This document shows positions 5,133 through 7,759 of a stretch of DNA of 17,881 nucleotides, one piece after another; position 1 is the first letter of the stretch; each line of letters opens with the position of its first letter. The notes below the pieces were generated by a model. The model saw only the letters and a program-made list of their open reading frames with translations. It ran no database searches and was not told the DNA's origin. Position numbers and translations under genes: made by a program. The stretch is from NCBI GenBank assembly GCA_018260755.1, contig JAGTWP010000027.1:1-17881 (forward strand), written 5' to 3'. The stretch is from Candidatus Altarchaeum sp. (GTDB taxonomy: Archaea; Altiarchaeota; Altiarchaeia; Altiarchaeales; Altiarchaeaceae).

Positions 5133-5534
5133 ATGTCTGTTGCATGGATTTATTTAATTTCGGCAATACTTTTGAGGTTGCAGGGACAACATATATGAAA
5201 TTTAGCGATGGTTTTACAAAAATTTTGCCTTCGGCCATGATGTTTGTACTTTAGGGGGGAAGTTTCATTGCTTTAACTTATGCAGTCAAAACCATTGATA
5301 TTATTCTTGCTTACGCTGTGTGGGCTGCTGTCGGGATTATCCTTATAGCAATTATCGGAATACTTTATTTTAAGGAGCAGGTAACTGCATTAAAGGTTGT
5401 ATTTATCGAATTAATTATTATAGGTGTTGTCGGATTGTATTTATCGGATTAATTATTATAGGTGTTGTCGGATTGTATTTATCGGATTAATTATTATAGG
5501 TGTTGTCGGATTGTATTTAAGCGGAACACAGTGA
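5133..5534 (+). pseudogene. Broken small multidrug resistance (SMR/EmrE-like) transporter
   Basis: Reading across lesions gives a recognisable ~105-residue SMR four-helix drug/cation exporter: MSVAWIYLISAIL, then a frameshift to EVAGTTYMKFSDGFTKILPS, then TYAVKTIDIILAYAVWAAVG and finally LYLSGTQ. The membrane-embedded Glu (first helix, codon at 5174) is present only in the shifted frame. Lesions: one base lost in the T run at 5170-5173; a TAG at 5252-5254 where Tyr is expected before GGS; and a 38-bp unit present three times near the 3' end (5409-5522), which shifts the frame again. Base use matches its neighbours, so it looks like a native gene that decayed recently. The homopolymer lesion alone could be sequencing error, but the stop and the tandem repeat make true inactivation likely. 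Confidence 0.85.
5409..5522 (+). repeat. 38-bp tandem repeat, three copies, inside the SMR pseudogene
   Basis: Units are 5409-5446, 5447-5484 and 5485-5522. The first differs from the second at its first base, and the last differs in its final bases (aagc versus atcg). A short sequence ttgtattta precedes the array at 5397-5405 and recurs at the end of each unit, so replication slippage between these short matches explains the expansion. Because 38 is not divisible by three, each added unit breaks the reading frame. Confidence 0.95.
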
Positions 5535-5662: not shown

Positions 5663-6076
5663 ATGGCAATCGAAATAAAAGTAAGGGAGATAATGAAAAA
5701 GGACTTTGTAAAAATTGAAAAGGATGCAACTCTGATGGATGCGGCAATTAAAATGTATGAAAATCGTATTGGAAGTTTGATAGTTGAACCGAGTGAAAAC
5801 AGGGAACCTTTTGGAATTATAACCGGAAAGGATATTATTAAAGCGTATGCGGATGACAAACTTTTGAACAAAATAAAGGTTGGCGAAATCTCGTCTTCTC
5901 CGCTGGCGATTGTATCACCGGGAATGCCTATAAAATATGCTGCAAAACTGATGAAAAAAATAAATTTAAAGCATCTTGCCGTATTCAACGGAATAGATAT
6001 AGTCGGAGTGATGTCAAATGCAGATATAGTTGATGCAATAGCCGCAGAGGAAAAGAAAAGGGGAAGGAGCAAATAA
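5663..6076 (+). CDS. Two-CBS-domain protein
   Basis: The 137-residue protein consists only of two CBS domains, at about residues 7-66 and 72-129, followed by a basic tail (EEKKRGRSK). Typical features are VREIMKKDFVKIEKDATLMD at the start of the first domain and GIITGKDIIKAY and GVMSNADIVDAI closing the two domains. Such pairs bind adenine nucleotides or related ligands in the cleft between the domains and act as sensors, but the partner cannot be read from the sequence. It stands alone on the plus strand after the SMR pseudogene; its ATG follows an A-rich leader (tcaaaATG). Stand-alone CBS pairs are very common in archaea. The family call is sure and the specific role unknown. Confidence 0.92.
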   Translation: MAIEIKVREIMKKDFVKIEKDATLMDAAIKMYENRIGSLIVEPSENREPFGIITGKDIIKAYADDKLLNKIKVGEISSSPLAIVSPGMPIKYAAKLMKKINLKHLAVFNGIDIVGVMSNADIVDAIAAEEKKRGRSK

Positions 6077-6280
6077 TTTTGGGAAATTTAGATGTGTTTT
6101 TGGGGTTGACTAATTTTTACCCGTAAGGTATTTTTCTTTTCATCAGTAAAATTTTGTCTATGTATAATAAATGGTTTCCAAGAGAGGGTTCGACTGGATT
6201 TTAACGATTATTTAAATATTTAATGTTTAAAATTTAATTATTTATGAAAATTTTCAATCGTAAATTTTTGTTTAAATAAA
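6077..6280 (+). other. Intergenic region between the CBS gene and the zinc-finger gene
   Basis: No coding sequence is visible. The first part is unusually G-rich and T-rich for this genome (runs around 6081-6110). The last 70 bases are A/T-rich and should contain the promoter of the zinc-finger gene; ttatttatgaaaa at 6238-6250 is a possible TATA region. As this stretch and the small gene lie directly upstream of the CRISPR array, any array leader must be in or near here. Confidence 0.4.
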
Positions 6281-6436
6281 ATGGCGCGAACTTGTCCTCG
6301 CTGTGGTGGAAAGGGAACTATTACCTGTCCACGTTGCGAGGGAAGCGGAACTATCGGACCAATATTTAGTACTTGCGAAAGATGCGATGGTCGAGGTGTA
6401 GTCACATGCCCAATATGCGACGGCTCGGGCGAATAG
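6281..6436 (+). CDS. 51-residue DnaJ-type zinc-finger protein (four CxxCxGxG motifs)
   Basis: The small reading frame starts at ATG 6281 after aataaa and ends at TAG 6434-6436. It holds four motifs of the DnaJ cysteine-rich domain in order: CPRCGGKG (5-12), CPRCEGSG (16-23), CERCDGRG (32-39) and CPICDGSG (43-50). In DnaJ/Hsp40 the first and fourth motifs bind one zinc ion and the second and third another, and the same pairing is possible here. There is no J-domain or substrate-binding domain, so the protein is a bare zinc module of nearly the minimum size. Codon use (CGC, CGA, GCG, GGC) is more GC-rich than in the neighbours, which may reflect the Cys/Gly/Arg content or transfer. Its stop lies 11 bases before the first CRISPR repeat. 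Function is unknown; redox, protein-disulfide or RNA-binding roles are possible. Confidence 0.85.
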   Translation: MARTCPRCGGKGTITCPRCEGSGTIGPIFSTCERCDGRGVVTCPICDGSGE

Positions 6437-6447
6437 ATATGTGAAGC

Positions 6448-6739
6448 GAAAACAATCGCACTATGTAGTATGGAAACCTTTTTTTATTTTTTATTTTTTT
6501 TATTTTTTTGTTAAAACAATCGCACTATGTAGTATGGAAACCGAGCAGCAGTAAAAAAATACTCTTCAATGAACGGGTTTAAATCGCACTATGTAGTATG
6601 GAAACTTGGGCATTGCGTACTCATCACGAAGTGCGGACGATGGTGGTTTAAATCGCACTATGTAGTATGGAAACTGCTGTTCAAATTGACGGCATTAAAC
6701 AAAAAAAATAGTTTAAATCGCACTATGTAGTATGGAAAC
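6448..6739 (+). CRISPR. CRISPR array, five repeats and four spacers, no cas genes nearby
   Basis: Repeats lie at 6448-6477, 6510-6541, 6577-6605, 6646-6674 and 6711-6739. The last three are identical 29-mers starting gtttaaatcgcactatg and ending tagtatggaaac. The first two keep the 3' 23 bases but have aaaacaatcgc instead of tttaaatcgc at the 5' side, followed by a shared c. Spacers are 32, 35, 40 and 36 bases. The 3' end ggaaac matches the usual GAAAC end of type I-B/III-like repeats and would form the crRNA 5' handle, so transcription should run left to right with any leader at the left. The first spacer is a T tract of pattern T7-A-T6-A-T8-A-T7. No cas gene is in the window, so the array depends on Cas proteins encoded elsewhere or is silent. 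Confidence 0.95.
6479..6509 (+). terminator. Poly-T tract within the first CRISPR spacer
   Basis: Twenty-eight of about thirty-one bases are T, in four runs of six to eight interrupted by single A bases. Archaeal RNA polymerase is known to stop at U-rich tracts, so this could end the transcript of the upstream zinc-finger gene or cut short the array transcript. As a spacer it would be a very poor targeting sequence. The terminator reading is an inference. Confidence 0.4.
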
Positions 6740-6817
6740 TAAATTTTGCCCACACCCTAATTTTGCTGATGGATTGTTTTTGAAATGTAATAAAAATAAT
6801 GTGATAATGTGATAAAG

Positions 6818-7759
6818 ATGGATATTACAAATTTGAGAAATAAGCTTATTAATAACCTCACAGGTAAAATTTCCGAAAAAGTGAGTGAAAAAATTGTTGG
6901 CGAGGATAACCGAAATGTAACAGAGGCATTAATTGAATTAACTATTAAAGTAAAGGCAAATTTTATTAATAATGCAAATTCTCTTTCTGTTTGTTTTCCA
7001 GTTCCGATTGAGGACAATGAACACAGAATATTAGAGTATAAAATTTTATGGCGCGAAGGCGAATATCATAAATGCAAAATTGAAGACGGTTTGGCAATTT
7101 TAAATTTCAGAAAGGACTACAATAAAGGCGACAAAGAGGGTTGTTCAATTTATTTTAACTTAAAAAATCAGGCATATAAATCCATCTGGGCTCATTCAAA
7201 TCCGGAAAAGTTTTTAAATCCGCAAAAATACACCTTTCTTTCTGATGATACAAAAAAATTTCTTGGGCAATTTAAGGCTGAGAATAGCAGAGAAATCACA
7301 GATAAAATTTCGACATGGATTTTTTTAAATTTAAGATACAGCGACATTGATGAAATGAAGAATGCCGAATGGTTATTCAAAAACAAAATTGGAAATTGTA
7401 TTCATTATTCGACATTGTTCATTGCCTTTTGCAGATATTTTGAAATTCCGTGCAGATATGTGCTTGGCTTTGCGAAATACGGGAAATTTGAGCCACACAC
7501 ATGGGTTGAGTTTTACGATAGGGAAAATTCTTTATGGATTCCAATGGATTTATCGTTGAATCAGAAATTTTTTGTTGATGCGACACATATTCCGATAAGC
7601 AGACTTGAGGAAAAGCAGGTAAGCAGGTATTTTAAGGAGGTAAATATTGAAATTCCAAATGACTATGACGAAATTTTTAAAATAATAAATTTCGGAACGG
7701 AAAGTGTCGTTAAGGAAGATGCACATGTAGAAATCAGTGTTAGGGGAAAGATGATATAA
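6818..7759 (+). CDS. Transglutaminase-like cysteine-protease-fold protein
   Basis: The protein has 313 residues from this ATG; a GTG at 6809 would add three. A transglutaminase-like core fills the middle and second half. The expected triad is visible: Cys194 in GNCIHYSTLFIAF, His227 in HTWVEFY and Asp244 in PMDLSL, followed by the usual short strand. The first 140 residues form a beta-rich region without recognisable motifs, as is common upstream of archaeal transglutaminase cores. There is no signal peptide or membrane helix, so it should be cytoplasmic. Such proteins cleave or modify peptide bonds, but the substrate cannot be inferred. It begins about 80 bases after the CRISPR array and converges with the NAD kinase gene, separated by 37 bases. 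It is not a known Cas protein. Confidence 0.85.
   Translation: MDITNLRNKLINNLTGKISEKVSEKIVGEDNRNVTEALIELTIKVKANFINNANSLSVCFPVPIEDNEHRILEYKILWREGEYHKCKIEDGLAILNFRKDYNKGDKEGCSIYFNLKNQAYKSIWAHSNPEKFLNPQKYTFLSDDTKKFLGQFKAENSREITDKISTWIFLNLRYSDIDEMKNAEWLFKNKIGNCIHYSTLFIAFCRYFEIPCRYVLGFAKYGKFEPHTWVEFYDRENSLWIPMDLSLNQKFFVDATHIPISRLEEKQVSRYFKEVNIEIPNDYDEIFKIINFGTESVVKEDAHVEISVRGKMI

Follow-up and report, generated by a model that had tools for sequence, protein, structure and literature searches.

We analysed a window of 17,881 nt from Candidatus Altarchaeum sp. (the whole stretch presented above, contig JAGTWP010000027.1), in which a CRISPR locus containing a short protein gene lies between two chromosomal genes. 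On the forward strand, a CBS-domain gene (5663-6076; Pfam CBS, 3e-22) is followed by a CRISPR leader of 194 nt (6077-6270), the first 8 nt of a leader-proximal repeat (GTTTAAAT, 6270-6277, recognized by alignment with the leader-repeat junction on another contig of the genome, C44), a segment of ~176 bp (6278-6453) carrying the ORF of a 51-aa DnaJ-type zinc protein (6281-6436), five repeats with their spacers, a trailer (6740-6808) and a transglutaminase-like gene (6809-7759; Pfam Transglut_core, 2.8e-20). No known RNA family or tRNA was found in the window. A tandem array with a 38-bp unit (5397-5519; 3.2 copies, 98% matches) lies upstream of the CBS-domain gene.

The five repeats (6449-6477, 6513-6541, 6577-6605, 6646-6674 and 6711-6739) are all on the strand of the zinc-protein ORF, which bears out a preliminary description of this DNA as a four-motif, 51-residue ORF next to a CRISPR array in the same orientation; that description had the ORF ending 11 bases before the first repeat, and here the adjacency stands while the distance becomes 12 nt from the stop codon. 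Repeats of 29 nt and spacers of 35-40 nt give the array the regularity of a type I-B array. Repeats 1 and 2 have one and the same hybrid sequence (AAAACAATCGCACTATGTAGTATGGAAAC), in which AAAAC from the edge of the insert takes the place of GTTTA and the last 24 nt are unaltered, and repeats 3, 4 and 5, the last at the leader-distal end, are canonical (GTTTAAATCGCACTATGTAGTATGGAAAC). Spacer 1 (6478-6512), the newest, consists of 30 T in 35 nt (86%), compared with a mean of 35% (s.d. 11%, maximum 58%) for the spacers of the C44 array, and its complexity is too low for it to be traced to a captured protospacer. For spacers 2 (6542-6576) and 3 (6606-6645), no exact protospacer match was found in viral contigs; spacer 4 occupies 6675-6710.

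The main type I-B system of this genome is located on C44, where ~55 repeat copies lie behind cas6, cas8b, cas7, cas5b, cas3, cas4, a two-gene pair, cas1b and cas2 (locus L010), a full type I-B set by profile (Cas6, Cas8b/TM1802, Cas7/Csh2, Cas5b, Cas3, Cas4, Cas1b and Cas2). A 23-nt core of the window-array repeat has more than 50 exact occurrences on this contig and none with a reversed-pattern control; since the same core recurs there beside a complete type I-B cas gene set, we take the window array to be real. The leader ties the two arrays together as well, being 99% identical over 194 nt to C44:10480-10673, the main-array leader between cas2 and the first repeat (81% in congener G002 and 72% in congener G003). 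It is AT-rich (GC 24%), with one block conserved across four leaders of the genus. Repeat, leader and serving cas genes are thus all common to both arrays, whereas the window array has no adjoining cas genes, has an ORF between leader and repeats, carries two hybrid repeats and shares none of its spacers with the C44 array. In our judgement the gene content marks the genome as archaeal, and type I-B CRISPR has been reported from Altiarchaeota (PMC8324899); we found no published mention of the window-array repeat.

Two further features of the C44 locus may be recorded here. Judging from sequence, the two genes between cas4 and cas1 in the cas operon (L010 7583-9156) may be a toxin-antitoxin pair of the AbiE kind. 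In the main array, spacer 6 (L010 11033-11069) includes 24 nt of the repeat in antisense orientation, and therefore array DNA itself was seemingly captured as a spacer; through this copy, spacer 6 is also the sole C44 spacer with a match in the window.

The leader of a CRISPR array usually abuts the first repeat directly, an arrangement that is not strictly defining. This is the case on C44, where the leader continues directly into GTTTAAATCGCAC, the canonical repeat (GTTTAAATCGCACTATGTAGTATGGAAAC) following it. In the window, the leader is followed by GTTTAAAT (with one G fewer than its C44 counterpart) and then by AAAATGGCGCG, which is the start of the ORF, and the repeat resumes at AATCGCAC and is completed past the ORF, so that ~178 bp separate the leader from the first repeat. 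The ORF thus interrupts the leader-proximal repeat and does not replace the leader; the preliminary description had it standing where a leader would normally lie, and this part must be given up, the leader being present immediately upstream of the ORF. The inserted segment extends from 3 nt ahead of the start codon to 17 nt past the stop codon, has a GC content of 50% (window 32%, leader 24%) and is present once in the genome. Derivation from the genome's own DnaJ gene or from another copy of the insert was ruled out, there being no second protein or DNA match. The triplet AAT is found at both edges, perhaps as a 3-nt target duplication, perhaps by chance.

Judged by comparison with the congeners, the whole leader-ORF-array block is itself an insertion. 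In G001 and G003, the CBS-domain gene adjoins the transglutaminase-like gene at a distance of ~40 bp, compared with 732 bp in the window, and the entire block is lacking; the transglutaminase-like gene has orthologues at 76-81% in all three congeners (G001-G003). The left edge of the block falls right after the CBS stop codon and the right edge near 6808, the latter being approximate. This is a draft genome of 78 contigs in which the leader is present twice, and such a configuration carries a risk of assembly error; a chimera is argued against because both correct ancestral neighbours are retained around the block.

Taken together, we consider it probable that the first repeat in a satellite array of the organism's own type I-B system took up a foreign gene and that spacer acquisition continued afterward. 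First, a duplicate of the leader and the adjoining first repeat was placed between the CBS-domain and transglutaminase-like genes, as shown by the near-identical leader and by the site being empty in two congeners. Cas1-Cas2 encoded on C44 would then have added spacers at the leader end, since the locus has a leader, an array and spacers not common to C44. Next, as the junctions show, a foreign fragment of ~176 bp, comprising little beyond the complete 51-residue coding sequence, entered after nucleotide 8 of the repeat. Finally, at least one more spacer (spacer 1) would have been gained, duplicating the 29-nt hybrid repeat although the true leader end was by now ~178 bp away; this last step follows from the two identical hybrid repeats that precede three canonical ones. 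Spacer acquisition duplicates the leader-proximal repeat and is normally tied to the leader-repeat border, and the order of the repeats makes it most likely that spacer 1 postdates the insertion.

New spacers go in at the leader end of an array, and promoters are a feature of CRISPR leaders (PMC7694759). Type I-B and I-E repeats possess internal rulers that determine the second integration site (PMC6895254); such rulers could explain how the hybrid repeat was duplicated at 29 nt despite the distant leader. The locus is an apparent natural insertion experiment at the leader-repeat junction, the most important junction of an array: the leader is displaced by ~178 bp and the repeat is altered in its first 5 nt, yet it was seemingly duplicated at exactly 29 nt. 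With this sequence, supplied by evolution, type I-B adaptation becomes directly testable for its leader dependence and its internal ruler, and the locus also raises the question of whether the 5' end of a pre-crRNA can be translated into a protein.

The ORF product, MARTCPRCGGKGTITCPRCEGSGTIGPIFSTCERCDGRGVVTCPICDGSGE, has four CxxCxGxG motifs with a spacing of 11/16/11 and appears from its sequence to be a free-standing DnaJ-type zinc module. These motifs are common to the DnaJ central zinc domain, BSD2 and anti-TRAP, but the 51-aa protein has the zinc motifs alone, with neither the J domain nor the substrate domains of the DnaJ architecture, and this motif spacing sets it apart from all three. 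In Pfam, it reaches the BSD2 cysteine-rich domain (PF25436) with 27.1 bits against a cut-off of 27, the best stretch covering residues 4-23 only, and the DnaJ central domain (PF00684) with 27.1 bits, under the cut-off of 32.7; in NCBIfam, the match to anti-TRAP (RtpA; 5e-8, 32.8 bits) is under the equivalog cut-off of 65. A search of solved structures returned a BSD2 chain (6ekb, 5.6e-5) and DnaJ (5e-4), and a structure predicted from the single sequence, without an alignment, was too poor for use (pLDDT 50). Most likely, the protein folds around two small zinc sites and acts as a stand-alone chaperone-like or RNA- or protein-binding module, apart from CRISPR immunity.

As for expression, the leader is the probable promoter of the unit, and the arrangement makes a shared transcript likely, with the zinc-protein ORF first and the array after it; no terminator is evident between the stop codon of the ORF and repeat 1. 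Termination in archaea makes use of runs of at least 4 U, and such U-tracts support termination in Methanococcus (PMC8716108). By analogy, spacer 1 may act as a transcription end after the ORF and repeat 1: being nearly pure T, it would stop much of the transcription just past repeat 1, giving a short zinc-protein mRNA and little crRNA from spacers 2-4.

A broader interpretation, which we regard as unlikely, is that in this lineage promoterless foreign genes land in, and are expressed from, CRISPR leaders and repeats, where they would arrive via Cas1-Cas2 misintegration or repeat recombination. What speaks for it is a second gene unique in the phylum: in the C44 main array, near its leader-distal end, an RNase HI gene (L010 14107-14589) replaces a spacer, runs in the direction of the array and lies between two perfect repeats, its ATG inside the preceding repeat so that the ORF starts within or next to it. 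For both this gene and the zinc-protein gene, the space behind the preceding repeat or leader is too short for a separate promoter. The RNase HI is of phage type by PHROGs (phrog_531), with distant phage homologues; a pattern scan found no viral source for it, and no relatives of the gene were found in the other 28 genomes of the phylum. Set against this interpretation, there are two cases only, in one genome and at differing positions (one inside a repeat, the other between two intact repeats), and the zinc-protein gene is not flanked by whole repeats, unlike the expected product of Cas1-Cas2 integration. It is equally doubtful, in our estimation, that arrays of this genus are at once gene-cassette platforms and immune memory, the zinc protein being the first cistron of a pre-crRNA that ends in the T-rich spacer and the RNase HI being the second case. 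From the RNase HI gene in the main array and the repeats found outside the main arrays in G003 (described below), a general looseness of repeat placement in the genus seems likely.

That the block instead came with a virus or plasmid, bearing a leader-equipped mini-array and a zinc gene of its own, we think quite improbable. Archaeal viruses do bear host-type mini-arrays with a leader; those of SPV1 and SPV2 resemble the window array in having few spacers, a host-like leader and no cas genes (PMC6858448), and phages have weakly similar small zinc proteins, the phage matches, which include antitermination Q proteins, being weak throughout. The window array differs from the SPV1 and SPV2 mini-arrays in being chromosomal, between genes syntenic with the congeners, so that carriage on a viral genome does not apply, and in having a protein gene downstream of the leader. 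Furthermore, the leader is 99% identical to that of the host itself, the block contains no other mobile-element gene, and a search of 2.9 million viral contigs gave no exact match to the repeat core, for which reason a viral source of the array was rejected.

The preliminary description had proposed that a DnaJ-type zinc module and CRISPR arrays might be coupled, and a dedicated CRISPR accessory, such as an RNA-binding factor co-expressed with the pre-crRNA and kept beside the array by selection, would be one form of this idea. The shared strand, the leader promoter upstream and the lack of a terminator before repeat 1 would all suit such a role, as would the fact that distant relatives such as anti-TRAP target an RNA-binding protein (the RtpA match being, as noted, under the family cut-off). 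The contexts of the homologues, however, make it very unlikely. The zinc-protein gene lies neither beside the main C44 array nor in any sister genome. In a phylum sample of 29 genomes, all of one class, the only other free-standing relative is a 56-aa ORF in G006, with no CRISPR array to either side within ~5 kb; the other matches in the phylum lie in long ORFs of DnaJ size (~380-390 aa). In public genomes, the matching proteins are DnaJ-like or otherwise long, with no CRISPR arrays in the flanks examined. As far as this sample goes, the homologues show no tendency to lie beside arrays, and a CRISPR neighbourhood is therefore not a property of the family. The adjacency itself turned out to be more than trivial, the gene being inside the CRISPR locus, but the conserved coupling was rejected; we found no evidence of a functional partnership between the zinc protein and CRISPR, and the location of the gene is most likely an accident of the insertion. 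A keyword search of the literature gave no fitting published case of a gene between a leader and a first repeat, weak evidence that none exists.

A CreTA-like module, in which a guide from the mini-array represses the adjoining small gene, is extremely unlikely: the window array does resemble CreTA and other ectopic repeats in having type I-B repeats away from the main array and adjacent to a small gene (PMC9458426, PMC8501985), but it has no degenerate repeat pair guarding a toxin (three of the five repeats are intact), its gene encodes a zinc protein and not a toxic RNA, no guide match to the gene promoter was found, and comparison of its spacers with leader and ORF gave a single 8-nt seed, inside the ORF and at about chance level, with none in the leader. 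Self-regulation of the CreTA type was rejected for want of a convincing seed match; the check for self-targeting spacers covered selected loci of the genome.

Ectopic CRISPR repeats are a known theme (PMC9458426), and in G003 lone repeats or very short arrays are found at gene starts. In one of these (L050 1115-1279, on G003:C139, minus strand), a promoter-like leader end and a repeat-spacer-repeat-spacer-repeat unit directly precede a TraB-family-like gene, and each of the two spacers exactly reproduces the 39 nt after the last repeat, i.e., the start of the gene itself; its orthologues in three congeners have no repeats there. At a further locus (L049 1455-1614, on G003:C130, minus strand), a leader (72%) is followed by a three-repeat array with a spacer that is a 95% copy of the sequence just past the last repeat, the 3' end of an apparent aroA. 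In two species, repeats also lie in or beside diverged 5'-end fragments of a peptidyl-tRNA hydrolase-like gene, with the intact gene following downstream (L051 2961-3120 on G003:C88; L059 2906-2934 on G002:C93). A solo repeat (L053 2549-2577 on G003:C79) stands between ~35-nt copies (88-91%) of one sequence, apparently a gene start, and in G002 a repeat-like sequence with 3 mismatches (L058 1973-2001 on G002:C220) is located directly at the start of cas1.
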